The position numbers were made by a program, and so were the translations under genes. The notes below the pieces were generated by a model. That model was not told the origin of the DNA and did no database searches. It was given only the letters and a program-made list of their open reading frames with translations. A stretch of DNA of 64,000 bases from Candidatus Polarisedimenticolaceae bacterium (GTDB lineage: Bacteria > Acidobacteriota > Polarisedimenticolia > Polarisedimenticolales > DASRJG01): positions 62,001 through 126,000 of the forward strand of contig DASUCV010000022.1 in the NCBI GenBank assembly GCA_036275915.1, written 5' to 3'. This document shows, piece by piece, positions 26,836 through 56,012 of the stretch (its first letter is position 1; each line of letters starts with the position of its first letter).

Positions 26836-26901
26836 TAAGGCGAATAGCTCGCGGACGTGCGTCGTCCGCGCCCGCCTGGGTGCCACGGAACTGGGGCCGC
26901 T

Positions 26902-38552: not shown

Positions 38553-38580
38553 CTGGATGGTGCTCTCGGGGGGAATTTTC

Positions 38581-41500
38581 ATGACTCGACTACTGCGGGT
38601 TCGACCGTCCGCGGCGCTCGTCCTGCTCGCGCTCTTGACCTGCGGCGTGACGATGACGCTCGCCTTCAAGGCGCCCGACAAGGCGGGCCGGTTCGATTCA
38701 CTCGTCATCTTGGATCCGAGCATTCCTCAGTACGTCACCTCCAAGCCGATCGAGTCGCTCCCCGCGACCGACGCGATCCGCCAGAGATGGGAAGGCTTCC
38801 GTGCCTCCCATGCCGGTGACTGGCGCGTGGCTCTCGAGGATCGGACCGGTGCGCCGCTTCTCGTCGAGGGACGAGGGATCGCGTTCGTGCCCGGGTCCGG
38901 CAACGCTCTTCCGCCGGGACAGCCTTTGACCGTCGATGCGCTCGCGTCGAAGCTGCAAACGTTCGTCGGCAGCAACAGCTCGCTCCTCCTCACGGACAGC
39001 GGCGACCTCCGCCTGAACGCAGCCGCCTCCGGTGAGATCGCGAAGGACGTCTGGCTCGTGGTCTTCGACCACGTCGTCGCCGGCGTCCCGGTCGCGGGCG
39101 ACCGCTATCAGTTCGCGATCAGCCACGGAAACCTCGTACAGTTCGGTGCGTCACGCTGGAGCAAGGTTACCGCGAGCCCGATCCCGGACGTCGCACCCGA
39201 GGCGGCGTTCGGTCACCTGCTCGCCTACATGGGCGTCCGCGACGGCGAGAGCTACAAGGTCGCCGAGGGCGCCAAGCTCCAGTATCTTCCCGTCCGCACC
39301 GTCGACCAGACCGCCGCGTACACCGGCAGCGTGGGGAACGGGTACAACGCCAAGCTCGCGTGGCGCGTCGGCGTCAGCGTCGCGGGCGAGCCTGGAACGT
39401 GGGTCGGTCTCATCGACGCTCACAGCGGCGAGATCCTCGGCTTCTTCGACGACGACGAGTACGCCCAGGCCAAGGGTGGCGTCTTTCCCGTGAGCAACGA
39501 CGGCATCCTTCCCGACGGCGTCGAGATCCCCGGGTACCCAATGCCGTTCACGAACATCACGATCGGCGCGTCGACCACGTTCGCCAGCTCCAGCGGCAGC
39601 TTCGCGTGCACGCCGGGCGGGTCGTCCGCCACCACGACGCTCGCCGGCCAGTACGTCAAGGTCGCCGACTCCTGCGGCGCCATCTCGAAGTCGGTCACCT
39701 GCGACAACGACCTCGACATGGGCGGCAGCGCCGGCACGGACTGCGCGGTTCCGGCGGGCGGCGGCGGTACGGGCAACACGCACTCCGCGCGCAGCAGCTT
39801 CTACCACCTGAACCGAATCGCGGAGCACGGCCGCTCGTGGCTCCCCGGCAACGCATGGCTGAACTCCCAGCTCACCGACAACGTCAACCTGAACCAGACC
39901 TGCAACGCGTACTGGCAGCCGAGCACCGGTACCGTCAACTTCTTCAAGTCGGGCGGCGGCTGCGGCAACACCGGCGAGATCGCGGGCGTCTTCCTCCACG
40001 AGTGGGGCCACGGCCTCGATCAGAACGACGGCGGCGGCACCGACAACCCCGGCGAAGCGTACGGCGACATCACCGCCCTCATGTCGACCCACGTCTCCTG
40101 CGTCGGCCGCGGGTTCTACGCCAGCCCGCCGTCGAACTGCTCCGGCTACGGCAACGCGTGCCTCAACTGCACGGGGATCCGCGACCAGGACTGGAACAAA
40201 CGAGCCAACCACGCGCCCTCGACCGTGAGCGTGTTCATCCCGACCTGCAACTCGGGCAGCGGCCCCTGCGGCAGGGAGGTCCACTGTGAAGGTTATCTCG
40301 CCGGCGAGACCCTCTGGGATCTCGCGAACCGCGATCTCCCTGCCTCGGGGATGGACACGGCGACGGCGTGGCAGCTCGCCGACAAGCTCTGGTACAAGTC
40401 TCGGAACGGCTCGGGCGGCAACGCGTACGCCTGCTCCACGGCGACGCCCCAGACGAACGGCTGTGCTGCGAACGCTTGGTTCTCCATGCTTCGCGTCGCG
40501 GACGACGACGACGGCAACCTTGCGAACGGCACCCCTCACGCCGCCGCGATCTTCGCCGCCTTCAACCGCCACACGATCGCGTGCGGTCTCGCCACCGACG
40601 CCTCGAACCAGAACTCGTCGTCGTGCCCGGCGCTCGCCGCTCCCGCCTTGGCGACGACCCCCGGCTCGTCGTCGGCGGCGTTGACATGGAATCCGGTGCC
40701 CAACGCCGTCACCTATCGCGTCCTTCGCACCGACGCCGGATGCGACACCGCCTCGACGACGATCGCCACCCCGGCCACGACGAACTACACCGACTCCGGC
40801 CTCGCGAACGGCTTTACCGAGTACTACCACGTGCAGGCGATGGGCTCGAACCCCGCGTGCGAGGGCGTTCTCTCGAACTGCCAGGCGGTGACGCCGCAGC
40901 CGTTCGCCGGCACCATCAAGCTCGACGCCTCGACGTACAACTGCTCGGCGACGATCCACATCACGGTCACCGACGGAAACGTCGCCGGCGCCACGACGAG
41001 CATCAACATCAAGTCGGGCACCGAGCCGGCCGGCGAGACGGTGACGCTGAGCCAGACCGGCGTGGCCACGTACACCGGCTCGATCGTGGTGACGAGCGCG
41101 GCGCCCGGATCCGACGGGCTCCTCTCCGTTACCAGTGGCGACACGATCACGGCGACCTACGTCGACGCCGACGACGGCCAGGGCGGGACGAACGTTCCCC
41201 GCACGACGACCGCCGATGCCGACTGCAACGCGCCGACCATCTCGAACGTCCAGTCGTCGAACGTGACCGGCCAGAGCGCGCGGATCACCTGGGCGACGAA
41301 CGAGAGCTCGGACAGTGTGGTCCATTACGGGCTCGCACCACCGCCGGGATCGACCTCGGGCAACCCGGCGCCGGTCAGCGCGCACCAGATCGATCTCCTT
41401 GGACTCCAGGAGTGCACGCCGTACGTCTTCTCGGTCTCCTCGACCGACGGCGTCGGCAATGCCGCCAGCGACAACAACGGCGGCGCGTACTACGGCTTCA

Positions 41501-43287
41501 CGACCCTCAAGAACATGCAATTCAACTACCCGTCCCCGGACACGCCGAAGCCGATCCCGGACCTCACGACGACCAACAGCGCCCTCGTGGTGGCCGATAA
41601 CAGGATCATCCAGGACGTCAACGTCAAGGTGAACTTGAACCACACCTACGACTCCGACCTCGCGATCAAGCTGATCGGACCGAACAACGTCGTCGTGAAC
41701 CTGTCGCTCAACAACGGTGGACCCGGCGATGACTACATCGACACGGTCTTCGACGACCAGGCATCGACGCCGATCGCGAGCGGCGCGCCGCCGTTCACCG
41801 GCTCGTTCATTCCGCAGCAACCGCTCTCGGTCTTCAACGGGCTCCAAGGGAACGGCACCTGGACTCTGCGCGTCATCGACAGCGTCGGCGGAGACTCGGG
41901 CACCCTGAACAGCTGGAGCCTCTCGCTGACCTACCCGAACCAGCCGTGCGGGCCTCACGCTATCTACAACTTCAATGCGCCGATCGCCGACACCTGCGGG
42001 AGCGGCGGCGCTGGGAACGACAACCTGATCTGGGAAGCAGGCGAGACCGTGCAGTTCAGGGTCAACCTGATGAACGACGGCACGGCGCCGCTGACCGGCG
42101 TCACCGCAACGCTCGTCCCGACGACACCGGGGGTCACGATGGTCAACGCCACCGCGAGCTATCCGGCGATCGCGGTCGGCGCTTCGGCCGATTCCAACGC
42201 CCCGCACTTCACTGCCAAGCTCGCGACGAACCTGCCGTGCGGCTCCCCCGTCTCGTTCCAGGTCAACATCCACGCAAACGAGGGGTCCTGGACCGGCAGC
42301 TTCAACCACACGGTCGGAGCGATCGTCTTCGCCATCGACACCGCGCTGCAGGAGGACTTCTCGGGCGGCATCCCGGCGACCTGGACCGTCGTCGACGGCG
42401 GTACGGGTGGCCTGGCCGGCGCCAACACGTGGACGACGGCCAATCCCGGAGCCCGCTCGCCGGCGCCTCCGATCTCGAATCCGTTCGCCATCGTCGACAG
42501 CGACAAAGCCGGAACCGGCGCGATTCAGGACGAGCAGCTCATCACCCCGGCGATGGACCTCACGACCGCGACCTCGGCGCAGCTCGAGTTCGACCAGTGG
42601 TTCAAGTGGTGGAGCGGCGGCAACGCGGAGCTCGGAGACGTCGACGTGAGGTCGTCTCTCAGCGGCGGCAACTGGGTGAACGTCTACAGAACCCCGCAGA
42701 ACAACGTGCCGGCGGCGTGCGACGGCACGACGTGCTCGACTGCCGACCATCGCGTCCTCGACATCACCGCGCAAGCGGCCGGAGCGTCGAGCGTCCAGAT
42801 CCGCTACCACTACTACAACGGGGCGTACGAATGGTGGTGGGAGGTCGACAACGTCAAGGTGACCTACACCGAACCGACCGGGTGCACCCAGACGGTCTGC
42901 TCTGCGGCGCCGACCTCGGTCAAGCCGGTTCCCGACGGCTCGTTCGGAACGTCGTTCAAGGCGACGCGGAACGACGCGGCGGGGACGCAGATCGGCGTCA
43001 CGTGGGACGTCTCGACCTGCGTCTCGACCGGTTACCACATCCTGTACGGCAATCTGGCGAGCGTGGCGTCGCTCACCCCCACGGGATCGGCGTGCGGGAT
43101 CGGCGTTTCCGGGAGCTATAGCTGGACCGGCGTCCCGGCCGGCAATCTCTGGTACGTGATCGCCGCCGACGACGGCGCGACGAACGAAGGAAGCTGGGGT
43201 CTGACGTCGAGCGGTGAGCGCGGCGGCGGCTCGGCTTCGGGTCAGTGCAGCATGGCCACGAGAGACAACTCGGGCAGCTGCCCGTAA
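38581..43287 (+). CDS. Giant secreted M36 (fungalysin)-like zinc metalloprotease with P-domain and Cys-Pro module
   Basis: 1568 residues from ATG 38581 (GGGGGGAA upstream; ATG 38557 is possible). Signal peptide ~1-30. A propeptide (~30-290) precedes the catalytic domain, whose zinc motif is HEWGH at 473-477 with the third-ligand segment NPGEAYGD ~20 residues later, equivalent to GEGWGD of fungalysins. Then fibronectin-III-like domains (~695-790), a YxC beta-domain (~780-880), another fibronectin-III-like domain, a proprotein-convertase-type P-domain (~980-1120; NHTYDSDLAIKLIGPN, GTWTLRVIDSVGGDSGTL), a CARDB-like domain, a MAM-like domain (WWWEVDNVKV) and the terminal module (LWYVIAADDG, ending GSCP). 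Extracellular proteolysis; substrates unknown. Convergent with the third TMTC-like gene. Confidence 0.87.
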   Translation: MTRLLRVRPSAALVLLALLTCGVTMTLAFKAPDKAGRFDSLVILDPSIPQYVTSKPIESLPATDAIRQRWEGFRASHAGDWRVALEDRTGAPLLVEGRGIAFVPGSGNALPPGQPLTVDALASKLQTFVGSNSSLLLTDSGDLRLNAAASGEIAKDVWLVVFDHVVAGVPVAGDRYQFAISHGNLVQFGASRWSKVTASPIPDVAPEAAFGHLLAYMGVRDGESYKVAEGAKLQYLPVRTVDQTAAYTGSVGNGYNAKLAWRVGVSVAGEPGTWVGLIDAHSGEILGFFDDDEYAQAKGGVFPVSNDGILPDGVEIPGYPMPFTNITIGASTTFASSSGSFACTPGGSSATTTLAGQYVKVADSCGAISKSVTCDNDLDMGGSAGTDCAVPAGGGGTGNTHSARSSFYHLNRIAEHGRSWLPGNAWLNSQLTDNVNLNQTCNAYWQPSTGTVNFFKSGGGCGNTGEIAGVFLHEWGHGLDQNDGGGTDNPGEAYGDITALMSTHVSCVGRGFYASPPSNCSGYGNACLNCTGIRDQDWNKRANHAPSTVSVFIPTCNSGSGPCGREVHCEGYLAGETLWDLANRDLPASGMDTATAWQLADKLWYKSRNGSGGNAYACSTATPQTNGCAANAWFSMLRVADDDDGNLANGTPHAAAIFAAFNRHTIACGLATDASNQNSSSCPALAAPALATTPGSSSAALTWNPVPNAVTYRVLRTDAGCDTASTTIATPATTNYTDSGLANGFTEYYHVQAMGSNPACEGVLSNCQAVTPQPFAGTIKLDASTYNCSATIHITVTDGNVAGATTSINIKSGTEPAGETVTLSQTGVATYTGSIVVTSAAPGSDGLLSVTSGDTITATYVDADDGQGGTNVPRTTTADADCNAPTISNVQSSNVTGQSARITWATNESSDSVVHYGLAPPPGSTSGNPAPVSAHQIDLLGLQECTPYVFSVSSTDGVGNAASDNNGGAYYGFTTLKNMQFNYPSPDTPKPIPDLTTTNSALVVADNRIIQDVNVKVNLNHTYDSDLAIKLIGPNNVVVNLSLNNGGPGDDYIDTVFDDQASTPIASGAPPFTGSFIPQQPLSVFNGLQGNGTWTLRVIDSVGGDSGTLNSWSLSLTYPNQPCGPHAIYNFNAPIADTCGSGGAGNDNLIWEAGETVQFRVNLMNDGTAPLTGVTATLVPTTPGVTMVNATASYPAIAVGASADSNAPHFTAKLATNLPCGSPVSFQVNIHANEGSWTGSFNHTVGAIVFAIDTALQEDFSGGIPATWTVVDGGTGGLAGANTWTTANPGARSPAPPISNPFAIVDSDKAGTGAIQDEQLITPAMDLTTATSAQLEFDQWFKWWSGGNAELGDVDVRSSLSGGNWVNVYRTPQNNVPAACDGTTCSTADHRVLDITAQAAGASSVQIRYHYYNGAYEWWWEVDNVKVTYTEPTGCTQTVCSAAPTSVKPVPDGSFGTSFKATRNDAAGTQIGVTWDVSTCVSTGYHILYGNLASVASLTPTGSACGIGVSGSYSWTGVPAGNLWYVIAADDGATNEGSWGLTSSGERGGGSASGQCSMATRDNSGSCP

Positions 43288-43292
43288 GTCAC

Positions 43293-43329
43293 GCTTGGGG
43301 GCGAGGCGGCGCTCGCCTCGCCCTCAAGC
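43293..43329. terminator. Strong hairpin between convergent genes, likely bidirectional terminator
   Basis: 16-bp stem with one G.T pair (left arm 43293-43308, right arm 43314-43329) and a 5-base loop GCGCT, filling the 43-base gap between two convergent stops. No long T tract, but position and stability suggest termination. Confidence 0.65.
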
Positions 43330-43330
43330 T

Positions 43331-45646
43331 TCAGGCGAGCTGCTTGAGCGTCGATTCGAGCTGCGGGCGCATCGGCGAGTCCGGGACGAGGCGAAGGTAC
43401 TCTCGGATCTCGGCGGCGGCGCGCTTCGGCTCGCGATGCGAGCGCAAGAGCACGATCGCGAGGTCGAGGTGGGCGTCGCCGTTGTCCGGCTCCAGCTCGA
43501 TCGCGCGCGCGAACGAGGCGATCGCCTGGTCGATCAGCGGGCCGGGATCGGGCACGGTCTCCGCCTTCGAGGCGAGCGTCGTGCCGATCCCGAGGTGAAC
43601 CCGCGCGGCGCGCGGCGTCAGCGCCTCCGCGGCGTGGAACTCTAGGAGCGCCTCGTCGAACCGTTTCTCCTCGAGCAATCGCTGCCCTCTCAGCCCGTGG
43701 AGATTCGCCGCCGCGCTGGGGTCGGTGAGCGCCGGGGACGCGGCCAAGGCCCGACGCTCGTACGCGTCCGCCTGGCGCGTCCGGTCCGCGGCGAGCGCAG
43801 GGCTCGCCGTCTCCTGCGCGAGCGCCCGTAGCGTCGCGGCGGCGTTCTGGAGCGCCTCGGCGTGCCCCGGATCGCGGTCGATGACGCTCCGGAGCTGCGC
43901 CAGCGCGGCGGTGTTCAGCGCCTCGCGCCGCCCGGCGTCGGTCTCGCCTCGCGCGCGGGCGGCGAGGACGACGCCGAGCCCTTCGGTGGCAACGAGGTCG
44001 TTCGGCTCGAGGGCGAGCGCCTTCCGGAGCGCGTCCTCCGCCCGTACGAGATCGCCGGCGTCGAGCGCAAGGCCGCCCTGGATCGACCACGCGTCGGCCC
44101 GCGACTCGAGGTCGCCGCTCGCGAGCGCCGCCTCCGCGTGCGCGCGGGCCTGGCCCTGGAGCACGGCGCGCGAGGCGGCGTCGTGCTCGCCCTGTGCGAG
44201 CACGCGCTCGGCCTTGGCGAGCGTGCGATGCGCCTCGGGGTACGCCGGATCGATCGCGAGCGCGCGCTCGGCGAAGCGGCGCGCCTCCGCCATCTCGCCG
44301 CGCGCGTAGAGCTCCGCGGCGTAGCCGCCCGCCGCCTTGCACGAGCGCGGCGCGGTCAGGACCGTCGCCGCGAAGAGGGTGCGGTTGTCGGACCAGGCGG
44401 GAACGCGGGCGACCGTTCTCCCCGCCCCCGCGAGAACGAGCGCGCCGCCGAGGACGGCCGCGACCCACGGCGCGCCGAGCCGGCGCCCCACGGCGGCGAT
44501 CGCGACCGCCGCCGCGAGGCAGATCCCGGCGGACGGGAGGTAGAGGAGACGCTCCCCGAAGATGGTGCCGATCGGCAGGACGAGGTTCGACGTGAGGAGC
44601 CACGCGAGCAGGAAGAACGCGAGACCGAACGCCGCCGCCGGCGATCTCCGGCGCAGGACGATCGCGGAGGCGATCGCGGCCGCGAGGAGGAGAAGGCACG
44701 CCGCGGTTCCGAGGTCGAGGTGCGTCGCGAGCGGGATCTCGTCGTAGGAGTAGTCGGCGGAGAGTATCCGGGGGAAGACGAGAAGGCGCACCGCCTCCCC
44801 GAAGACCCGGACCGGCGTGAGCACCCGCGCCGCTCCCGCCGCCGATGCGACCGGATTGTCGACGTCGAGAACACCCGGGGGCGGAGGGGTCGTGCCGGTC
44901 CACGACCCGAGGACGTACGCGCGCGCCCCGAGATAGACCGCGGCGCCCACGACGAGCGCGACGAGGACGCGGCGGACCGCCGGACGCCTCCACGCTTCGC
45001 GCCCCTCGTAGGCAACCCACACGCAAGCGATCGCCGGCACGACGATCGCCTGCTCTTTCGCGGCGAGGCCGGCGAGGAGCGCCACGCCTGCCGCGATCGC
45101 GTTCCCCTCCCCGTCGTCGCCTCGCGCGGCCCGCACGACGGAGCGGAGCGCGATGAATGCGAAGAACGCGGCGACGAGCTCGGCGCGTCCGACGATCCCG
45201 AGGACCGCCTCGCCGTGCACGGGATGCACGGCGAAGAGCGCCGCCGCGAGCACAGGCACGGCGACGCCGCCCTCCATCGCGGCGAGCAAGAAGAAGAACG
45301 CCACGCTCGCCGCGGCGTGCCAGAGCAGGTTCTGGAGGTGGAACGGCGCGGCCGAGTTGTCCGGCAGACGCACCGGCACCGGCGCCGGCAGACGTGCGAG
45401 CGGGTAGTCGACCGCGAACGTCGCCATCGTGAGCGGGCGCCAGAGCAGGCTCTGCGGCCGCCTCCCGTCCCACCAGTCGGTCGCGAGCATCCGCCCGGGG
45501 TGCGCCCACGTGCGGATCCGAGCGTTCTCCGCCACGAGCGGGATGTCGTCGAAGGTGAAGCCATGACGGACGGAGGCGACGTACGGAAGAACGGCCAGGA
45601 GCGCGATGGCGGCGCCGAGGAGCGCCCTCGAACCGGTGCGCGGCAT
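43331..45646 (-). CDS. TMTC-like multispanning glycosyltransferase (GT-C type) with long TPR tail
   Basis: 771 residues. First loop FTFDDIPLVAENARIRTW carries the paired Asp of the family; other hallmarks are LLWRPLTMATFAVDY, HPVHGEAVLGIVGRAELVA and AAKEQAIVVPAIA. About ten membrane segments to residue ~385, followed by ~370 residues of TPR-like helices (APRSCKAAGGYAAELYARG, AHRTLAKAERVLAQ, DLVRAEDALRKALALEPND, GDAHLDLAIVLLRSHREPK). Predicted to transfer a lipid-linked sugar to exported acceptors. Third and largest such protein in the window; its start is only 26 bases from the divergent membrane protein gene. Confidence 0.8.
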   Translation of the reverse strand: MPRTGSRALLGAAIALLAVLPYVASVRHGFTFDDIPLVAENARIRTWAHPGRMLATDWWDGRRPQSLLWRPLTMATFAVDYPLARLPAPVPVRLPDNSAAPFHLQNLLWHAAASVAFFFLLAAMEGGVAVPVLAAALFAVHPVHGEAVLGIVGRAELVAAFFAFIALRSVVRAARGDDGEGNAIAAGVALLAGLAAKEQAIVVPAIACVWVAYEGREAWRRPAVRRVLVALVVGAAVYLGARAYVLGSWTGTTPPPPGVLDVDNPVASAAGAARVLTPVRVFGEAVRLLVFPRILSADYSYDEIPLATHLDLGTAACLLLLAAAIASAIVLRRRSPAAAFGLAFFLLAWLLTSNLVLPIGTIFGERLLYLPSAGICLAAAVAIAAVGRRLGAPWVAAVLGGALVLAGAGRTVARVPAWSDNRTLFAATVLTAPRSCKAAGGYAAELYARGEMAEARRFAERALAIDPAYPEAHRTLAKAERVLAQGEHDAASRAVLQGQARAHAEAALASGDLESRADAWSIQGGLALDAGDLVRAEDALRKALALEPNDLVATEGLGVVLAARARGETDAGRREALNTAALAQLRSVIDRDPGHAEALQNAAATLRALAQETASPALAADRTRQADAYERRALAASPALTDPSAAANLHGLRGQRLLEEKRFDEALLEFHAAEALTPRAARVHLGIGTTLASKAETVPDPGPLIDQAIASFARAIELEPDNGDAHLDLAIVLLRSHREPKRAAAEIREYLRLVPDSPMRPQLESTLKQLA

Positions 45647-45672
45647 CGGCGGATAGTAGATGATGGCGCGCC

Positions 45673-47517
45673 ATGCGTCGCCCCGGTCCGAGAGGACGAA
45701 ACCTCGCCACCGCAGCGGCGCCCCTCGCGGTCCTCGGCGTCGCGGCGGCGTTCGCGCTCCGGAAGCTCGACGACTTCGATACCTTTTGGCACTTGGCCGC
45801 CGGCCGGTTCATCGCACGGCACGGGATTCCCGAGACCGACGTGCTTTCGCACACGGTCAGGGACCATGCGTGGATCAACCTGCAGTGGGCGTTCGACGTC
45901 GCGATCTACGCCCTCCACGCCGCCGGCGGATTCGCGCTCCTCTCCGTCGTCTCGGCGGTCGCGTTCACGGGGACCGCGTGGCTCGTCCTCCGTCTCGTGC
46001 GCCCGCACCTCGGGGACGTCTTGGGCGCGGCGCTCGTCCTCTTGGCGATCCTCGTCGCGCAGGACCGGTTCAACGTCCGGCCCGAGATGGCGTCGTTTCC
46101 CCTGCTCCTCGCGGTGCTCGCCGTCCTCGAGCGCGCCAGGAACGACGACGGACGCGGGGCGCTCTGGCTCGTCCCGCTCATGCTCGTCTGGGTCAACGTG
46201 CACGCCCTCTTCATCGTCGGTGCCGTCGCGATCGTCTGCGCGATGGCGGGCTCGCCGTCAAGGCGCCTCGCGATCGCGGGCGGGAGCGCGCTCGCCGTGA
46301 CGCTCGTCAACCCGTACGGCTGGCGCGGCGTCGCCTTCCCCCTGAAGCTTCTCTCGCGGATCGACCGGTCGAACCCCGCGTTCCAATCGATCGCCGAGTT
46401 CCATTCGCCTTTCGCTCCGGACGTCTTCGGCGTCGCGGTGAACGCGTACAAGGCGACGCTCGTCCTCGGGATCGCGGCCGTCCTCTCGGCGCTCGTGCTG
46501 CGCTGGCGCGCCGGCCTCCGGCGGCTCGCGGCGTTCGACCTCGGCGGCGTCGCCTTCTTCGCGGCGCTCGTGGCGCTCTCGGTTCTCGCACGGAGGAACC
46601 TGGCGCTCCTGGCACTCGGCGGCGCGCCGATGATCGCGCGCTCCGGTGCCGTGCTCGTGGCCTCGGCCGGCGAGCGCGGGCGACGGTGGGAGCGTCCCCT
46701 CGCCGCCGGTCTCGTCGCCGGCTCGCTCCTCCTCGCCGGCCTCGTCGTCACCGGATGGTTCTACCGTGCGGACGATCAATGCCGTGCGTTCGGAACCGGC
46801 GTCATCGACGGGTGGTTCCCCGAGCGCGCCGCCGCTTTCGCACGCGAGGCGCAGCTCCCGGGGACGCTCTACAACGATCTCGCCTCGGGAGGCTACCTGG
46901 CGTGGGACGACCCGGTCGGCGGAGGCGTCTTCATCGACGGCCGCCTCGAGGTTTACGACACCGAGTTCTATGACCGCTACGTGGATGGGATGTACGACCA
47001 GGCGCTCTGGAACCGCGAGGCCGCCCGGTACGGCGTCCAGACCGTCATGCTCTTTCATCACTGGGACAACCGGCGCCAGCTCTTGAAGCGCCTCATCGAC
47101 ACCGGAGCCTGGGCGCTCGTCTACGCCGACGAGTCCGCCGCGATCCTGGTGCGGCGGCAGGGCAACGACGTGGTGCTGGCCCGGGCCGACGCGCTCCAAG
47201 CCGTCTGGAACGGGCGCACGAAGGCCTGGCTCGAGCGACCGGCCGGAAAATACACCTTCGATGCCGGCCGCGTGGAAGGGACGCGGGCGTTCGCGCGGCT
47301 CCTGGCGGTGCTGGGCGACGGGGACGGGTCGGTCGAGGAATACCATCGGCTCATAGGCCTGGGGATCACACGGCGGGAGGAACGGGAGGTCCGCCTCAGC
47401 CTCGCCCGGTACTTCCGTGAGGTCGGGAGGCGCCCGGAGATGAGGCAAGAAGCGGGCCGTGTCCTCGAAATCGACCCCGGCAACGACGAGGCGCGGTCAA
47501 TGCTGGAGCGGGATTGA
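45673..47517 (+). CDS. Multispanning membrane protein, GT-C-like
   Basis: 614 residues. Residues 1-30 enter the first membrane segment; the loop that follows reads LDDFDTFWHLAAGRFIARHG and LSHTVRDHAWINLQW, a pattern conserved in a family of uncharacterised GT-C-like bacterial membrane proteins with an acidic first loop. About eleven membrane segments run to ~370. The C-terminal ~240 residues are extracytoplasmic, with LPGTLYNDLASGGYLAWDDP, VFIDGRLEVYDTEFYDRY, and a short TPR-like end (LGDGDGSVEEYHRLIGLGI). Likely a glycosyltransferase; donor and acceptor unknown. Shares a 26-base divergent start region with the TMTC-like gene and lies upstream of the S8 protease gene. Confidence 0.7.
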   Translation: MRRPGPRGRNLATAAAPLAVLGVAAAFALRKLDDFDTFWHLAAGRFIARHGIPETDVLSHTVRDHAWINLQWAFDVAIYALHAAGGFALLSVVSAVAFTGTAWLVLRLVRPHLGDVLGAALVLLAILVAQDRFNVRPEMASFPLLLAVLAVLERARNDDGRGALWLVPLMLVWVNVHALFIVGAVAIVCAMAGSPSRRLAIAGGSALAVTLVNPYGWRGVAFPLKLLSRIDRSNPAFQSIAEFHSPFAPDVFGVAVNAYKATLVLGIAAVLSALVLRWRAGLRRLAAFDLGGVAFFAALVALSVLARRNLALLALGGAPMIARSGAVLVASAGERGRRWERPLAAGLVAGSLLLAGLVVTGWFYRADDQCRAFGTGVIDGWFPERAAAFAREAQLPGTLYNDLASGGYLAWDDPVGGGVFIDGRLEVYDTEFYDRYVDGMYDQALWNREAARYGVQTVMLFHHWDNRRQLLKRLIDTGAWALVYADESAAILVRRQGNDVVLARADALQAVWNGRTKAWLERPAGKYTFDAGRVEGTRAFARLLAVLGDGDGSVEEYHRLIGLGITRREEREVRLSLARYFREVGRRPEMRQEAGRVLEIDPGNDEARSMLERD

Positions 47518-47532
47518 CGAGTTCGAAGTTAT

Positions 47533-47573
47533 TTGGCGTTCCACAGGATTCCGGAGAGTCCCGACAACGCCAA
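47533..47573. repeat. Inverted repeat upstream of the S8 protease promoter
   Basis: Perfect 8-bp arms TTGGCGTT (47533-47540) and AACGCCAA (47566-47573), 25 bases apart, ending 6 bases before the -35 box. It may be an operator, or a weak terminator for the preceding gene. Confidence 0.4.
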
Positions 47574-47579
47574 AAGTGG

Positions 47580-47607
47580 TTGACTTATGGCCGATTAACG
47601 GTATTTC
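47580..47607 (+). promoter_or_regulatory. Sigma-70-type promoter for the S8 protease gene
   Basis: TTGACT (47580-47585), 16-base spacer, TATTTC (47602-47607), in a locally AT-rich stretch 50 bases before ATG 47657. Confidence 0.55.
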
Positions 47608-47656
47608 CACAAGGTGTTTCGGCGTAGAGCCTCATCAGGGGTTCCCGGGAGGAATC

Positions 47657-50600
47657 ATGGGTAGAGTTCTCACTCGAATCGTGGTCGTCGTGTCGGCTTT
47701 CGCGCTGGGGGGCCTGGCGCTCGCCGATGACGCCACAGCGCCCCAGAAGGTCCAAGGCGACAAGGAACTGCAGAAGCGCGGCGTCGTGTCGGTCACCGAC
47801 GCGAATGGCACCCCGATCGACCTGCGCGGCAGCGCGGCGCCTCCGAAGCCCGAGACCGCGAAGCACAAGGTCACCGGGGCCGACGCCGCGGTGCCGACGA
47901 TCCAGCGCGGCCAGGCGTGGTGGCCGTATGCCGAGCCGCTCGCCCGCCCTGCGGTCTCCGCCCGCACCGCCGCGACCCTCCGCGAGGAGGAGATCGACGT
48001 CAACGGCGTCGTCACGATCGACGTTCGCGATCCGCAGGCCGCGATGCAGAAACTCCCGAAGGAGCTCCTCGTCGATCAGAGCCGCCAGACCGGCGTCGAC
48101 GCCGGCTATTACCTCGTCAAGATCCGCGGGCTCTCCCGCACGCAGCATGAGGTCGACGCGCTCGAAGGGGCCGGTGCGGTTCTCGGCGAGTACCTCAACG
48201 TGAACACCTACATCGCGAAGATCCCCACCGCCTCCGTCGAGGCGGTCCGGGCGCTTCCGTTCGTGACCTACGTCGGCGACTACCAGCCGGCCTACAAGAT
48301 CAGCCCGCTGCTCGGCCTGCAGGACGTTCCGGTCAGCGAGGCCTACGACCAGGCGACCGGCCGCGAGCTTCCGTGGGTCCTCGAGATCGTGCTCCACAAG
48401 GGCGCGACGCCCGAAGACGTCCTGAGCGGGCTCGCGCGGCTCAGCCTCTTCCCCGATCGCAACGCGGACATCTTCGGGAACGATGCCGTCCGGCTGATCC
48501 ACGTGCGGTCGGCGCCCGACTTCATCCCGATGCTCGCGCAGATCCCCGGCGTCAAGTGGATCGCCGAGAAGCCGTACCCGCGACTCCTCGCGAGCGGGAC
48601 CTCGCCGAACGTGAACCCGATGCTCCTCCAGAACAACGGCGTGTTCACCACGAACAAGCTTACCGGCTGGAAGCTGTGGAACGCCGGCATCGACGGCAAT
48701 CTGAACGGCACGGCGCAGATCGTCACGATGATGGACACGGGCCTCAACACGAACGCGTATCACTTCTCCCAGGACACCGTGACCGCCGGAACGCTCGGCG
48801 CCGCCCACCGCAAGGTCGTCGGCTACGACGTCTACGGCGGCGACCAGTGCGTCAACAACTCGATCACGGCCGACGGGGGCCACGGCACCGAGACGTCCCA
48901 GCACGCCGTGGGCTCGATCTCGAACATGTCGACGAATCCCGACACGGTCCACACGCCCAACGAGAACTGGGACGACGGCATCGCGCGCGACGGCAAGGTC
49001 TACTTCCAGGACATCGGCAACGCGGCGGGGACGCTCAATCCCCCGGTCGACCTCGGCCCCGCGATCACCGCCGCGATCGCCAAGGGCTCGTTCATCCAGA
49101 ACCACTCGTGGGGCGCCGCGACGGCCACCTACGACTCGCAGGCGAGCCTCCTCGACACGGCGATCTTCAACAATCCGAACTTCATCGTGACCGCATCGGC
49201 GGGCAACAACGGCATCCTCGGCACCAGCACGATCGACGACGTCTGCACCGCGAAGAACTCGATCTGCGTCGGCGGCGCCGACCCGGGCAATCCGAACCTG
49301 CTCTTCGAGAACTGCGCGTGGGACGGCACGGCGGGCACCTGCTCGGGGAACGACCTGGGCTCGTCGCGCGGCCCGGTCCTCACCTCGGGCCGTGTCAAAC
49401 CCGACATCGTCACCTACATGGCGAACTGGACCAGCATCGGCGGCGAGTTCGAGGCGGTGAATCTCTCGCACCAGATGTGCCAGACCGACGCCACGAAGAC
49501 CCCGTACTGGGACTACGTCAACAACAGCGGTGTGGGTGGAACCTCCTTCTCCGCGCCCGAGACCGCCGGTCTCGCCGCGCTCGTCCGTGACTACTTCCTC
49601 TCCGGCTTCTACCCGTCCGGCGCGGCGACGCCCGCGAACGCGGTCACGCCTTCCGGCTCGCTCGTCAAGGCCGTCATCCTGGCGTCCGGCGAGAACATGG
49701 GCACGACCGGATGGCCCGACACGGGGCTCTTCCCTTCGATCCTCCAGCGCTACAGCTCGGACGTGGGCTTCGGCCGCGCGAACCTGCCGGCCGCACTCCA
49801 CATCGGCGCGGGCGCGCCGTTCCTCTGGATCCAGAACAACGACAACTTGGGTGACGGCAGCACCAAGAAATTCTTTTACACGATCAACAACAACGCGACG
49901 CCGCTGCGCGTCATGCTCGTCTGGTACGACGCCGCGGGGAACGCTCTCCAAAAGGACGCCGATCTGAAGGTCATCGTCGGCGCCAACACCTACCTGGGCA
50001 ACGTCCTCAGCGGCGGTTGGAGCACGACCGGCGGCAGCGCCGACCGCGCGAATACGACCGAGGGCGTCTTCCTCGACTCGGCGCACGGTCTGCCGGCCTC
50101 GGGCACGGTGGAAGTCGACGTCGTCGGCTTCAACGACCCCGCCGGGATGAACTACTCGCTCGTCGTCGTGGGCGACGTCGCCAGCCAGTCGGTCACGCAG
50201 GTCTCCTTCGACTCCTCGAAGTACTCCTGCAATAAGACGATGAACATCACGGTCAACGACACCGGCGCGACCTCGCCGGTCTCGGTCACCGTGACGAGCC
50301 GTGATTCCGGCTCGAACGTCATCGACACGAAGCTCGTCTCGTGCTCGGGATCGAACGGCGAGTTCAACGGCTCGATCATCGCGGGAAGCGGGATCACCGT
50401 CGCCGACGGCGGCACGGTCACCGCGACCTACGCCGCGGCGACCCCCTCCGTCGCCAACATCGTCTGCAAGCTGGCAGCGGGAGACGGCGGCTACATCCTG
50501 AACGGCGGCTGCGACAACTCGGCGGCCGGCACCGACCAGGTGGCCGGCCCGCTCACGAACAGCGGCCAGAACGAGTTCTACACCCGCTACATGGACGCGG

Positions 50601-53476
50601 GCGAGAACACCGCCTACACCTTCGGGTTCACCAACCAGACGGGCGCGCCGCTCTCCGACGTCTACGTCAACCTCAGCTTCTCCGGACCGGGCGCCGGCAA
50701 GATGACGGTGCTCAACAACCCGGTCCACGTCGGCGCGGTCCCGGTCGATGCCCTCACCGGCGCCGTCTTCCAGGTTCGCACCGACAACACGACGACGGGC
50801 CTGACCAGCGTCAACATGGACTTCGACATCACCTCCACGCCCGACGGATTCACGACCCCGAAGCGCCTGACGCAGGTCCAGCTCCTCCAGGCGAACGACG
50901 TCATCGTTCGGGAGAAGCAGTGCACGACGTTCAACACGTCGCTCGGGACGTTCTTCGAGTCCACCGTGAACGGCCACCCGACCAACCCGTGGAAGTGGAT
51001 CGGCTCGGCGACGGCGCCTTCGACGGTCGGCAGCGAGAACCGCGTCGACGGCATCTGCAGCAACAACACGGCGAACGCGGGCGCGATGATCGGAAACTCC
51101 GCGATCACCTCCGGTAACAACTTCACCGGGAACGCGGACTCGGTCATCCTCCAGCGGTTCCAGCCGCTGCTCCTGGGGAACGGGCCGAGCGGCCAGCCGT
51201 ACCACTACGCGTGGAAGTGGCACTCGTTCTATCACGCGTCGGAGACGAACGGAGCGACCACCGGCGTGTGGGGCGCGTTCTACAACGACCAGTGGAACCA
51301 GGCGGTCAATCCGACCGGCGATCAGGCGACGAACTTCCCGATCTCGCTGGCCTACTTCTACCAGACGGTCTTCGATTATCCGTCGGGCGTGGTCGGAAGC
51401 TGGAATTGGGAGCTCTCGAACACCGGTACTCCGGACGATCCGCGACTGAGCGCCACCTCGACGCCGGTCGCCGCACCGAACCAGATCTTCATCACCTTCA
51501 ACAACGTCACGGGCCTCGCCTCGGCGAGCACCTGGTTCTCGTACGGCCAGGAGCACGCCGATCTCACGGTCTTCGGCGGCACATCGACCGTGTTGACACG
51601 CCGTGACGTGGCGTTCGACAACGACAACCTGGTCTACGACGAGTACTACGCCGCAGCGCAAACCGGAGCCTCGTGCGCCTCGCCCCAGGTCGGGCTCGTC
51701 GCCTTCGACCGCTACGCCTACAACAACTGTCCGACGTCCCAGGCGGTCATCAGCGTCACCGACGCCAACGCCGTCGGCCCGCTGACGGTGACGGTGTCGA
51801 GCCCGGGAACGGGTGACACCGAACAGGTCACGCTCACCGGCTCGGCGCCCTACTTCACCGGGACGGTCAATCTCTCGACCGACACGATCGGAGGTGTCAA
51901 CGACGGCACGCTCCTCGTGCTGCCGAACGAGACCATCACCGTCGCCTACACCGATGCCTCACCCGCCGCCACGAGCACCGCGTCGGCCCAGATCGGCTGC
52001 ACCGGCGGCAACGTCGTCCTCGTCTCGCACACGCAGGTGTCGGACAACGGGGACAACGACGGGATCCCGGACAACAACGAGACGGTCACGATGGATCTCA
52101 CGATCCAGAACAACGGCGCGACCGACCTCAACAACGTGAAGGTCGAGCTGCTCAGCCACTCGGCCAACATCGACTGCGTCGGCGACGCGCAGGCGCTCTA
52201 CGGCACCGTCGCGGCCGGCGCGACCGCCACGAACCCGCCCAGCGATCGCTTCAAGTTCCACGTCGCCTCGTCGGTGGCGTGCGCGGATTGGCAAAACGCG
52301 CCGAAGGGGCAGTTCACCGTCCTCATCACGGCCGACGGGGTCAACGGGGCGCAGGCGCTCCAGACCTTCACGCTCGATCTCGATCTCGACAACCAGAGCG
52401 GCGGCGCGTACACCTTCAGCCAGAACTTCACTACGAACCCCGGCTGGCAGACCGGGACGGTGCCGTCCGACAACGGACCGTCGTGCGACACCAATCCGTA
52501 CGTCAACGACTTCCACTGGTGCGCGGCCTGCGGCAACGCGGGCGGCGGCTACGGTGCATGGATCGGCAACGCGGCGTTCGGCACGGCCGGTCAGAACTAC
52601 ACGGCGGCCTACGAGAACGCGGCTCTCTACTCGCCGATCTTCACGGCGAACGGTCCGACGACCCTGCAGTTCCAGGTCGCCTATCGGACGGAGCCGACCT
52701 TCGACGGCGCGATCGTGCAGTACCAGTTGAACAACAGCGGCTGGACCCTGCTCGGCTTCACGACTCCGGCGCAAGCCGCGACGACGGCCAGCAACTTCTG
52801 CAGCCCGATCGCGGCGAGCACCGTGGCGTGGACGGGGAACGGCGTCTCGTGGACGACCACGAACATCGCCAACATCCCATCCGCCAACGGCAACACCCTC
52901 CAGTTCCGCTGGAGACTCGGCGGGGATACCAGCGTCAACGGCACCAGCTTCGGCGGATTGGGTGTCGACAACGTCACCATCACGAACCTCCTGCAGACGC
53001 AGGTGTGCGAGCCCACGCGCAACACCCTCCTGCCCGGCTGCTCGGCCTGCGCGAGCGCGCCGGACGGCACACCCTGCGACGACAGCAACCCGTGCACGCA
53101 GACCGACACGTGCCAGAGCGGCGCGTGCGTCGGGTCGAATCCGGTGCCGGTACCGGGCGACGTCGGCAACACGGTGCAGGTCAACAAGTCGGGCACAGAC
53201 GCCAACCTCAGCTGGACGGCGGCGTCGAACGCGACGACGTCGGACGGCTTGCGCGGCAATCTCTCGGCGCTCCCGGTCGGTCCGGGCGGCGGCGACGAGC
53301 TGTGCTTCCCCGGCATCGGCGGGACGTTGCTCACCGACACCGCCGTCCCCGCTCCAGGAACCGGCTTCTGGTACCTCATCCGTGGCCACAACTCGTGCCA
53401 GGGCGGAGGCACCTACGGCAACCAGGGCGTGAACGGCTCGCCGGGCGCGCTTCGGGTGAGCACGACCTGTCCGTAG
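47657..53476 (+). CDS. Giant secreted S8 (subtilisin-like) serine protease with beta-domains, CTDC-like repeat and Cys-Pro module
   Basis: 1939 residues from ATG 47657 (GGGAGGAATC upstream). Signal peptide 1-23. A long prodomain (~25-330) precedes the S8 domain: Asp360 in MMDTGLN, His409 in GGHGTETSQH, oxyanion Asn in SAGNNG, and Ser630 in GGTSFSAPETAG. Then at least two copies of a YxC beta-domain (~850-930 and ~1350-1440; KYSCNKTMNITVNDT, AYNNCPTSQAVISVTDAN), a CARDB-like domain (~1460-1570), a MAM-like domain ending LGVDNVTITN, a CTDC-like repeat (CDDSNPCTQTDTCQSGACVG) and the terminal module (WYLIRGHNSC, ending TTCP). The last four domains repeat the order found in the M36-like protease. 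Extracellular protease; substrate unknown. Confidence 0.88.
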   Translation: MGRVLTRIVVVVSAFALGGLALADDATAPQKVQGDKELQKRGVVSVTDANGTPIDLRGSAAPPKPETAKHKVTGADAAVPTIQRGQAWWPYAEPLARPAVSARTAATLREEEIDVNGVVTIDVRDPQAAMQKLPKELLVDQSRQTGVDAGYYLVKIRGLSRTQHEVDALEGAGAVLGEYLNVNTYIAKIPTASVEAVRALPFVTYVGDYQPAYKISPLLGLQDVPVSEAYDQATGRELPWVLEIVLHKGATPEDVLSGLARLSLFPDRNADIFGNDAVRLIHVRSAPDFIPMLAQIPGVKWIAEKPYPRLLASGTSPNVNPMLLQNNGVFTTNKLTGWKLWNAGIDGNLNGTAQIVTMMDTGLNTNAYHFSQDTVTAGTLGAAHRKVVGYDVYGGDQCVNNSITADGGHGTETSQHAVGSISNMSTNPDTVHTPNENWDDGIARDGKVYFQDIGNAAGTLNPPVDLGPAITAAIAKGSFIQNHSWGAATATYDSQASLLDTAIFNNPNFIVTASAGNNGILGTSTIDDVCTAKNSICVGGADPGNPNLLFENCAWDGTAGTCSGNDLGSSRGPVLTSGRVKPDIVTYMANWTSIGGEFEAVNLSHQMCQTDATKTPYWDYVNNSGVGGTSFSAPETAGLAALVRDYFLSGFYPSGAATPANAVTPSGSLVKAVILASGENMGTTGWPDTGLFPSILQRYSSDVGFGRANLPAALHIGAGAPFLWIQNNDNLGDGSTKKFFYTINNNATPLRVMLVWYDAAGNALQKDADLKVIVGANTYLGNVLSGGWSTTGGSADRANTTEGVFLDSAHGLPASGTVEVDVVGFNDPAGMNYSLVVVGDVASQSVTQVSFDSSKYSCNKTMNITVNDTGATSPVSVTVTSRDSGSNVIDTKLVSCSGSNGEFNGSIIAGSGITVADGGTVTATYAAATPSVANIVCKLAAGDGGYILNGGCDNSAAGTDQVAGPLTNSGQNEFYTRYMDAGENTAYTFGFTNQTGAPLSDVYVNLSFSGPGAGKMTVLNNPVHVGAVPVDALTGAVFQVRTDNTTTGLTSVNMDFDITSTPDGFTTPKRLTQVQLLQANDVIVREKQCTTFNTSLGTFFESTVNGHPTNPWKWIGSATAPSTVGSENRVDGICSNNTANAGAMIGNSAITSGNNFTGNADSVILQRFQPLLLGNGPSGQPYHYAWKWHSFYHASETNGATTGVWGAFYNDQWNQAVNPTGDQATNFPISLAYFYQTVFDYPSGVVGSWNWELSNTGTPDDPRLSATSTPVAAPNQIFITFNNVTGLASASTWFSYGQEHADLTVFGGTSTVLTRRDVAFDNDNLVYDEYYAAAQTGASCASPQVGLVAFDRYAYNNCPTSQAVISVTDANAVGPLTVTVSSPGTGDTEQVTLTGSAPYFTGTVNLSTDTIGGVNDGTLLVLPNETITVAYTDASPAATSTASAQIGCTGGNVVLVSHTQVSDNGDNDGIPDNNETVTMDLTIQNNGATDLNNVKVELLSHSANIDCVGDAQALYGTVAAGATATNPPSDRFKFHVASSVACADWQNAPKGQFTVLITADGVNGAQALQTFTLDLDLDNQSGGAYTFSQNFTTNPGWQTGTVPSDNGPSCDTNPYVNDFHWCAACGNAGGGYGAWIGNAAFGTAGQNYTAAYENAALYSPIFTANGPTTLQFQVAYRTEPTFDGAIVQYQLNNSGWTLLGFTTPAQAATTASNFCSPIAASTVAWTGNGVSWTTTNIANIPSANGNTLQFRWRLGGDTSVNGTSFGGLGVDNVTITNLLQTQVCEPTRNTLLPGCSACASAPDGTPCDDSNPCTQTDTCQSGACVGSNPVPVPGDVGNTVQVNKSGTDANLSWTAASNATTSDGLRGNLSALPVGPGGGDELCFPGIGGTLLTDTAVPAPGTGFWYLIRGHNSCQGGGTYGNQGVNGSPGALRVSTTCP

Positions 53477-54054: not shown

Positions 54055-55959
54055 CTACTTCTTCCCCGCCGTCCCCTTCTTGTTCAGGATCTCTTCCATC
54101 GCGTCGATCGTCTTGTTCATCTCGCGCATCGCGGCCGCGAACGGCTCGGGTGTCGCCATGTCGACGCCGGCGTCCTTGAGCATGTCGTAGGCGTACTTGG
54201 ACGAGCCGGAGGAGAGCATGCCGAGGTAGGCGTCGCGCTTGGCGGTCGAGGCCGGCTTGGCGGCGGCCTCGGCGCGGATGCCATCGGCGAGCTTGGCCGA
54301 GGCGATCATGCTGGTCGCGTACTGGTAGACGTAGAAGTCGTAGTACATGTGCGGGATGTAGGCCCACTCGGCCTTGTAGGTGTCCTTCACCTCGCACACG
54401 CCCTGGTCGTGGCCGTAGTACTCGCGCAGGAGCTTGAGGTACAGCTCCGACACGTTGTCGCCGGTCAGGGGCTCGCCCTTGGCGACCATCTCGTGGACGC
54501 GCAGCTCGAACTCGGCGAGGAGGCCCTGGCGGAAGAGGGTCGTGCGGAGGCTATCGAGGTAGCTGCCCAGCAACGAGAGGCGCTCGTCGTCGGTCTTCGC
54601 CTTCGCGATCATCGAGTGGACGAGGAGGTTCTCGTTCAGCGTCGAGGCGACTTCCGCGATGAAGATCGGGTAGTCGTGCGTCGCGTAGGGCTGCGCCTTG
54701 TCAGCCAGGTAGGTGTGCATCGAGTGGCCGGATTCGTGGGCAAGGGTCGAGACCTCGTCGTAGAGGCCGGTGAAGTTCTGGAGCTGGAACGGATGCGTGC
54801 CGTAGGTGCCGGTGCTGTACGCGCCCGAGCGCTTGCCGGGGCGCGGGAACCAGTCGATCCAGCGGCTCGCGAAGCCCTGGCGCAGCGCGTTCTGATAGTC
54901 GGGGCCGAGCATCGCGACGGCGTCGAGCGTGGCGGCCATCGCCTCTTCTGGGGTGAAGCGGCGGTCGACCTTGCCGACGATCGGCGCGTAGAGGTCCTCG
55001 TAGCCGAGCTTGTCTAGACCCATCATCCGCTGGCGGAGCTTCAGGTAGCGGTGGAGCGTGCCGAGGTTGGCGTGGAGGTCCTTGATCAGCTCGTTGTAGA
55101 CGGCCGTCGGGACGTTGTCGTTGAACAGGGCCTCTTCGAGCGACGAGTCGTACTTGTGCATCTTGCGCGAGAACTCGTGGGCCTGGACGCCGGCGCCCAG
55201 CGCGGTGCCGAGCGTGCGCGTGTAGTCGCCATAGGTGCTCCAGAATGCCTGGAAGACCGCGAGTCGGTCGGCACGGTTCGCGACGGCGCGGTACTTCGTG
55301 TAACCCTGGGCGTCGAGGCGGACCTTCTCACCGGTCGAGAGCGTGACGGTGGGGTACGGGAAGTCGGCGTTGACGAAGACATCGCGGATCGACTGGCCTG
55401 TTCCCTGGACGATCCTCGATTCGGCGAGGATGCGCTCGGACTCGGGGTCGAGCGTGTGCGCCGCCCGCCGCAACACGTCTTCGAGCGGCTGCTTGTAGAC
55501 GGCGAGGCGGGACTCGGAGGCGACGAAGCCGCGGATCTTGTCGGCGCCCACGGCCTGAAGCTCCGGATTGACCCAGGAGGTCGCCGCGGCGAACGCCGTA
55601 CCGGCGAGGCGCGCCTGGTCGTTCATCTGCTGCATGCTCGAGACCCGAGTGTCGAGGTCGAACGACATGCTCGCGTAGACGCCGACCTTGGAAAGGCGCT
55701 TGCCGACGTCGGAGATCAGGTCGAGACAATCGGCCAACGCTTTCGCGGAGTCGCCGAGGTGGCCCTTGCACATCTCGATCTTCGGCAGATCGGCGACGGT
55801 GGCGTTCTTCGCCGCGGCCCACGCCTCCTGGTTCGGGTACAGGTCGGTCAGGTTCCACGTGTACTTGGGATCGACCGGCCTCCCGGCCTCGTCGGCGGCG
55901 AATGCCACGGGGGCGGTGAGCGCCAGTACGAGCGAGAGTCCGAGCATTCGACGCGTCAT
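54055..55959 (-). CDS. pepF: Exported M3-family oligoendopeptidase (PepF-like)
   Basis: 634 residues from ATG 55959 (GGAGGACTCCC upstream). Signal peptide 1-22 (MTRRMLGLSLVLALTAPVAFA) is unusual for PepF, which is normally cytoplasmic, so this copy probably acts in the periplasm. The zinc motif HESGH is at 408-412 with the downstream Glu ligand in FIAEVASTLNENLL, as in M3 peptidases; TWNLTDLYPN near the N-terminus and YIPHMYYDFYVYQYATS near the C-terminus are also family hallmarks. Cleaves short peptides; with the neighbouring secreted proteins it may clear signal peptides or proteolysis products. 53 bases after the S1-domain gene. Confidence 0.9.
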   Translation of the reverse strand: MTRRMLGLSLVLALTAPVAFAADEAGRPVDPKYTWNLTDLYPNQEAWAAAKNATVADLPKIEMCKGHLGDSAKALADCLDLISDVGKRLSKVGVYASMSFDLDTRVSSMQQMNDQARLAGTAFAAATSWVNPELQAVGADKIRGFVASESRLAVYKQPLEDVLRRAAHTLDPESERILAESRIVQGTGQSIRDVFVNADFPYPTVTLSTGEKVRLDAQGYTKYRAVANRADRLAVFQAFWSTYGDYTRTLGTALGAGVQAHEFSRKMHKYDSSLEEALFNDNVPTAVYNELIKDLHANLGTLHRYLKLRQRMMGLDKLGYEDLYAPIVGKVDRRFTPEEAMAATLDAVAMLGPDYQNALRQGFASRWIDWFPRPGKRSGAYSTGTYGTHPFQLQNFTGLYDEVSTLAHESGHSMHTYLADKAQPYATHDYPIFIAEVASTLNENLLVHSMIAKAKTDDERLSLLGSYLDSLRTTLFRQGLLAEFELRVHEMVAKGEPLTGDNVSELYLKLLREYYGHDQGVCEVKDTYKAEWAYIPHMYYDFYVYQYATSMIASAKLADGIRAEAAAKPASTAKRDAYLGMLSSGSSKYAYDMLKDAGVDMATPEPFAAAMREMNKTIDAMEEILNKKGTAGKK

Positions 55960-56012
55960 GGGAGTCCTCCGGGCCCTCAGAAGAGCACAGGAACGATGTA
56001 CGCGTCGAACGC

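Follow-up and report, generated by a model that had tools for sequence, protein, structure and literature searches.

A modular C-terminal arm of exchangeable domains, ending in a class-wide Cys-Pro tail, on two giant proteases of an acidobacterium

Two very large proteases encoded close together on one contig raise the question of whether enzymes with unrelated catalytic domains can carry the same C-terminal arm and, if they do, what the arm might be for. The window analyzed here is the whole 64-kb stretch, bases 62001-126000 of contig C22, from a genome of 4.53 Mb in 24 contigs. An earlier note had read the two enzymes as M36 and S8 proteases sharing a four-domain arm (a YxC beta domain, a CARDB-like domain, a MAM-like domain and a Cys-Pro module) and had taken this to imply recombination of a complete surface-delivery arm onto different enzymes. 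In window coordinates, the two genes are the following:

38557-43287, + strand: P0001, predicted HEWGH metalloprotease with arm (1576 aa; HEWGHGLD at aa 481)
47459-53476, + strand: P0002, S8 subtilase with arm (2005 aa counted from GTG; PF00082 at aa 418-740, E = 3.8e-19)

The S8 label agrees with the PF00082 match and with catalytic Asp, His, and Ser motifs in P0002 (MMDTG, GGHGTE, and GTSFSAP), which place the enzyme in Peptidase S8. Judged by eye, its translation is likelier to start at the ATG at 47657, ahead of a signal-like stretch, than at the GTG. The M36 label was dropped for P0001: domain scans gave no match to PF02128, a genome-wide PF02128 search in which no control matched either was also empty, and the matches to M4 were weak and found in four of the nine family members scanned (best E = 8e-4). 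From its motif, P0001 is a HEWGH metalloprotease whose peptidase family we leave unassigned.

When P0001 and P0002 were compared by blastp, the YxC domain alone gave convincing matches (E = 4e-5 and 0.004). For comparison by hhalign, the arm profiles were built separately for each side so that neither protease could recruit the other; these replaced earlier profiles mixing both proteases, which had inflated the YxC and CARDB values. In a first round using own-genome paralogs alone (four on the P0001 side, two on the P0002 side), YxC was matched with probabilities of 96.7 and 96.5 and the CARDB-like domain with 83.5, and the MAM-like pair went undetected (0.6). In the second round, the P0001 profiles drew on the four paralogs plus up to nine ORFs from other genomes, and those for P0002 on two plus four. 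With the enlarged profiles, YxC of P0001 matched both P0002 copies (probabilities 99.2 and 99.1; E = 3e-19 and 6e-19), the CARDB-like domain matched the second P0002 copy (97.2, E = 4.7e-11) and, more weakly, the first (60.7, E = 8e-5), and the MAM-like domain matched the second P0002 repeat (70.3, E = 4e-5). Unlike domain pairs reached at most 5.5; like matched only like. The Cys-Pro tails, named A-type for P0001 and B-type for P0002, belong to one family (hhalign of the two alignments, probability 96.6, E = 5.9e-10). An AlphaFold2 model of the MAM-like domain of P0002 (pLDDT 73.5, pTM 0.78) has the MAM jelly-roll fold by both Foldseek and VIA superposition, matching the MAM domain of Limulus astacin (Z 14.3, 142 residues aligned, rmsd 2.7; Foldseek E = 2.3e-6) and the Kgp cleaved adhesin K1 (Z 12.6). 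The fold is that of meprin-type MAM domains and the gingipain cleaved adhesin, whereas at the level of sequence the domain has no convincing match among PDB chains. The domains of the two arms, all on the + strand, are these:

40897-41211, +: YxC beta domain of P0001 (matched to each P0002 copy by blastp and hhalign)
41212-41511, +: fn3 domain of P0001 (PF00041 at aa 893-968, E = 7e-6; no profile match in the P0002 arm)
41512-41940, +: P-domain of proprotein convertase type, P0001 (PF01483, E = 2.8e-14; no counterpart in the P0002 arm)
41941-42330, +: CARDB-like domain of P0001 (hhalign to the second P0002 copy)
42331-42882, +: MAM-like / choice-of-anchor J domain of P0001 (NF038128, choice_anch_J, E = 3.8e-8; hhalign to the P0002 copy)
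42940-43284, +: A-type C-terminal Cys-Pro tail of P0001 (four invariant Cys and a final CP in the alignment)
50183-50473, +: YxC copy 1 of P0002 (hhalign to P0001 YxC)
50468-50893, +: weak CARDB-like segment 1 of P0002 (hhalign to P0001 CARDB)
50879-51682, +: P0002 segment separating the two repeats (MAM-like profiles gave no match)
51674-51994, +: YxC copy 2 of P0002 (blastp E = 4e-5 to P0001; hhalign)
51995-52402, +: CARDB-like domain 2 of P0002 (hhalign to P0001 CARDB-like)
52394-52996, +: MAM-like domain of P0002 (AlphaFold2 model)
52997-53176, +: Cys-rich insert of CDDSNPC type, P0002
53177-53473, +: B-type C-terminal Cys-Pro tail of P0002 (AlphaFold2 model of fn3 fold)

Both proteases, then, bear one kind of modular C-terminal arm built of exchangeable domains. 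The four domains described in the earlier note are all found in both proteins and in the same order, but the arms had been under-described: P0001 has an fn3 domain and a P-domain between YxC and CARDB, and P0002 has an upstream YxC, the weak CARDB-like segment, and the Cys-rich insert. The segment at 50879-51682 had been a candidate for a second MAM-like domain and was set aside when the separate profiles gave it no support. The Cys-rich motif directly before the P0002 tail is a repeated element, with 60 copies spread over 16 ORFs in the own-genome stretches that were fetched.

Of the 41 class genomes, 36 have YxC domains, and the YxC match list led us to fetch 20 stretches holding 22 YxC ORFs. 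Scans of 21 of them found S8 as catalytic partner in eight, a trypsin-like domain in two, and M28 in one; the HExxHG motif occurs in eight of the 22. The search for other enzymes with the same arm turned up a trypsin-like protease in another genome of the same order (L165), whose catalytic half reads LTASHC...GGSSGSP and matches Trypsin_2 just below the cut-off (E = 6.5e-6, 27.4 bits against 27.6). Over 800 columns, residues 498-1287 of this protein are 51.5% identical to the arm of P0001, from YxC through to the closing Cys-Pro, and the catalytic halves of the two proteins give no blastp match. Because L165 has the whole P0001 arm behind an unrelated catalytic half, the arm can move as a unit. 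A different combination is seen in L148 and L149, which have the catalytic domain, YxC, and fn3 in common with P0001 at 54% identity and differ in the remaining arm. Exchange of the arm between unrelated catalytic domains is therefore well supported, although "complete" is too strong a word for P0001 and P0002, in which the extra domains differ. The term "surface delivery" was a guess at function, and the evidence touching on it is indirect and concerns the last module. The genome also contains a YxC fragment (G000:C18:374692-374886) whose 77-aa frame is interrupted by a TAG; it may be what is left of a decayed protease gene.

The last module is a domain of ~90 aa with an fn3 fold, placed at the extreme C-terminus and closed by Cys-Pro-stop. 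It is present on both proteases but is not restricted to proteases. Searched against its own genome, the last 99 residues of P0002 gave 62 matches at E ≤ 0.1 and the last 115 residues of P0001 gave 11. For ORF counts, we used 55 own-genome stretches around tail matches: after iteration, the B-type module was found in 64 ORFs, in 57 of them at most 30 residues from the stop, and the A-type in nine more, and the genome encodes at least 66 tail-bearing proteins. The exact CP end is seen in 60 of 66 tail ORFs (six lack it) in comparison with 2 of 202 complete genes without a tail from the same stretches, identified as genes by their codon GC pattern (P = 4e-50, Fisher test). For the B-type, 51 of 57 tails end in CP-stop and none continues into a hydrophobic helix. 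Among 63 near-full B-type copies in the own-genome stretches, 51 lie within 5 residues of the stop, three at 6-25 residues, and nine are internal, a count that leans to terminal copies as the profile was made from 41 of these. Most of the internal copies retain the Cys, which makes this residue look structural; just one of the nine has Cys-Pro and eight lack it, so the Pro seems to belong to a free end. Five tail proteins are encoded in the window, three of them in addition to the two proteases:

1-1297, +: tail protein that begins upstream of the window (tail at C22:62980-63180, near the stop)
26857-30423, +: tail protein (tail at C22:92160-92420, at the stop)
57434-61216, -: tail protein (tail at C22:119488-119727, at the stop)

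In the B-type alignment, the terminal Cys never varies and one mid-domain Cys hardly does; the A-type has four invariant Cys. The AlphaFold2 model of the B-type tail (pLDDT 88.4) shows an fn3 fold over residues 1-84 and superposes on fn3 domains with VIA Z up to 8.8 (76 residues, rmsd 1.9), the last 17 residues being hardly covered. When 41 tails were compared with Pfam and NCBIfam, no family described the tail, and the open-licence literature in PubMed Central yielded no account of such a tail in Acidobacteriota.

The tail is a feature of the class, Ca. Polarisedimenticolia, given as Acidobacteriota subdivision 22 in PMC8528874. Of 297 genomes drawn from the phylum, 81 had a tail match: the 34 class genomes in the draw had from 8 to at least 17 matches each, and matching genomes outside the class had mostly 1-3 weak ones, with a few families exceptional. 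In the class as a whole, tails were found in 41 of 41 genomes (24 of 24 good ones), with 5 to at least 123 matches each at E ≤ 1e-4 (own genome: 92); the highest counts are minimum values, and some matches are expected to be ordinary fn3 domains. We looked at 40 stretches from 21 other genomes, 20 of them spread down the match list of genome G059 and 20 around strong matches, one per genome. There, 45 of 47 tail ORFs stop at most two residues after the tail; a CP end is seen in 35 of the 47 and is missing from 10 of the 45 terminal ones. These counts include two ORFs twice, as L103 and L121 overlap. A search of named genomes with 11 closely related tails gave four loci in three genomes. In other families, P0001 relatives carry a shorter fn3 tail, seen in 13 of 22 YxC ORFs; it stops at CG-x-EGP or close to it, and its profile matches the B-type up to the last strand of the latter (probability 97.6). 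Ends at or close to CG-x-EGP-stop were seen in L148, L149, L152, L154, L155, L156, L158, L161, L162, L163, and L166; one strand short, they leave an incomplete fold at the free end.

The proteins that carry the tail are diverse. The cargo scan covered 61 tail proteins without their tails and up to the first 1100 aa, with five shorter than 300 aa omitted. The families among the matches listed include TSP_3 and the MopE motif (nine each), Kelch (seven), S8 and FG-GAP (six each), DUF11 (four), and Sortilin (two), as well as M1, the kumamolisin prodomain, FGE-sulfatase, and laminin-G. A strict, though crude, signal-peptide rule was satisfied by 33 of 61 tail proteins and 31 of 130 other genes (P = 6e-5) and failed by the other 28 tail proteins; it replaced a lax rule satisfied by 46 of 61 and 97 of 202, respectively. 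Counts of membrane helices were uninformative (10 of 61 against 35 of 202). By the strict rule, many of the tailed proteins are predicted to be exported.

What, then, could the arm and its tail do? Our best explanation as a whole, which we hold with about as much doubt as confidence, is a swapped modular arm whose tail serves as a C-terminal sorting or anchoring domain. The cargo would cross the inner membrane by Sec and fold in the periplasm; a dedicated apparatus, in the outer membrane or at the surface, would recognize the tail and release or attach the protein. A disulfide probably joins the terminal Cys to the conserved Cys in mid-domain and so staples the C-terminus, with the last residue, Pro, as a likely cap against carboxypeptidases. 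Between enzyme and tail, the YxC, CARDB-like, P, and MAM-like domains would serve as spacers or as binding modules. More tentatively, the tail-processing enzyme could be a C25 peptidase whose nearest annotated relatives are PorU and PorU2.

The closest known parallel is the C-terminal domains of the type IX secretion system (T9SS) of Bacteroidota, which, like the tail, form a beta-sandwich at the extreme C-terminus of many unrelated exported proteins (export of the tailed proteins being judged by the signal-peptide rule); a PorU-kind C25 peptidase in most of the class genomes is a further likeness. T9SS C-terminal domains are described as immunoglobulin-like 3+4 sandwiches (PMC11285876), whereas the tail has an fn3 fold with a terminal Cys-Pro, and none of 41 tails matched any of the T9SS C-terminal families (six from Pfam and five from NCBIfam) at E ≤ 1. 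The SprA/Sov translocon was found in none of 36 genomes, with no control genome matching either, and type IX membership by way of SprA gained no support. Among the genomes searched in PMC4793230, type IX secretion is reported in Bacteroidetes only. The tail may work like a type IX cargo domain, yet it fails the type IX sequence tests. MYXO-CTERM, GlyGly-CTERM, and PEP-CTERM are likewise C-terminal sorting tags on many cargo proteins, and MYXO-CTERM is described with an invariant Cys (PMC11980579). Unlike that type, the tail here has no transmembrane helix or basic end after its Cys and the chain normally stops one residue later, which places it outside this group.

Peptidase_C25 occurs in 29 of 41 class genomes (20 of 24 good ones) and in 0 of 14 controls. 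In the 20 loci fetched, 18 hold one orthologous protein of ~1450 aa, a member of the family by PF01364 (E = 7.9e-71) with the catalytic Cys and His in all 18 orthologs. As in PorU and PorU2, there is a C25 domain, a prodomain, and the two catalytic residues, and the own-genome protein has PorU as its best PDB match (6za2, E = 2e-9). The two best NCBIfam matches of three orthologs scanned are the PorU sortase (NF033707, E = 1.2e-61) and PorU2 (NF052324, E = 5.7e-51), with best scores of 208.6 and 173.7 bits, both under the curated cut-offs of 420 and 450. In P. gingivalis, PorU is described as cleaving C-terminal domains in a sortase-like reaction (PMC4560394). The orthologs here further differ from PorU in that they mostly end in a truncated fn3 domain, often with SPF, and have radical SAM neighbors. 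The median number of tail matches is 45 in genomes with C25 and 22.5 in those without (P = 0.015), a difference confounded by completeness, and the four of 24 good genomes in which C25 is missing still have 68, 40, 22, and 10 tail matches. The evidence that connects C25 with the tails is circumstantial.

A competing reading concerns this step alone: C25 may be unrelated to the tails and mature a radical-SAM-modified peptide encoded nearby. Radical SAM/SPASM genes are found in 13 of 20 C25 loci, HprK/ScmC-like genes in six, and PqqD-like genes in four (an ECF sigma factor is found in eight), and because radical SAM, PqqD, and HprK-like genes adjoin it, a different, peptide-modifying role for C25 has to be taken seriously; we consider it only a little short of probable. 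The sequence of C25, nearest to PorU, speaks against this role, as does a B-type-tail protein near C25 in 5 of the 20 loci, though chance could give the same. In the own genome, C25 lies in a gene set on contig C18 (L167:6584-14357) that recurs in loci L168-L184 and comprises C25, radical SAM/SPASM, PqqD-like, HprK/ScmC-like, and ECF sigma factor genes and a small repeat-bearing exported protein; it looks like a peptide-modifying cassette.

For the tail itself, the main competitor to a sorting or anchoring domain is an end-cap that is merely structural or adhesive, an fn3 domain, stapled by a disulfide, that shields the C-terminus or attaches to a polymer or the cell surface and was spread by domain shuffling without sorting machinery. 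The commonness of the fn3 fold, the Cys kept by most internal copies, the other beta modules in which the same proteins are rich, and the failure to find a channel in the SprA search, where controls also went unmatched, are all consistent with such a cap. Counting against a sorting role, too, are the nine internal copies, the tails that lack a CP end, the other, shorter tail on many P0001 relatives, and the 28 tail proteins that fail the strict signal-peptide rule. A near-strict terminal position and an exact CP over unrelated proteins in 41 genomes are, in contrast, hard to reconcile with a plain spacer or binding module, and we regard the end-cap as possible but doubtful. We prefer a sorting or anchoring domain to a plain structural module because of the position, the exact ending, the diversity of the cargo, and the class-wide spread.

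The fullest form of the sorting reading would be a complete pathway outside Bacteroidota, in which an fn3-type Cys-Pro tail marks dozens to more than 100 exported proteins, a PorU-like C25 cuts it and joins the protein to a surface anchor, SprA plays no part, and the radical-SAM/PqqD unit makes part of the apparatus or the anchor; we think this form unlikely. Another exit route is available, since all 41 class genomes have a GspD-family secretin, of either type II or pilus kind. Type II secretion, with the fn3 tail as the folded feature recognized or as a surface-retention module, would agree with the frequency of fn3-like and P-domains in type II cargo. It is improbable even so, given that no secretin in the 41 genomes reaches the GspD cut-off, so that these may be pilus secretins, and that type II cargo is not known to have a single terminal domain in common.

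If the sorting or anchoring role is correct, the tail would bear on how many large exported enzymes are placed in these Acidobacteriota, for which we found no description in the open-licence literature of PubMed Central. As a class-wide terminal domain unnamed in Pfam and NCBIfam, it allows candidate surface or secreted proteins to be listed from sequence alone; it also points to a candidate sorting enzyme and brings to light a putative delivery arm exchanged between proteases.

The surroundings of the two proteases offer two further observations, both made by eye. Between them lie two GT-C-glycosyltransferase-like membrane proteins, at 43331-45646 on the - strand and 45673-47517 on the + strand, one with TPRs and TMTC-like, which may glycosylate exported proteins. 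Adjoining the proteases at 54055-57621 on the - strand is an ORF that, in its C-terminal part, looks like an exported oligoendopeptidase of M3 type (HESGH).
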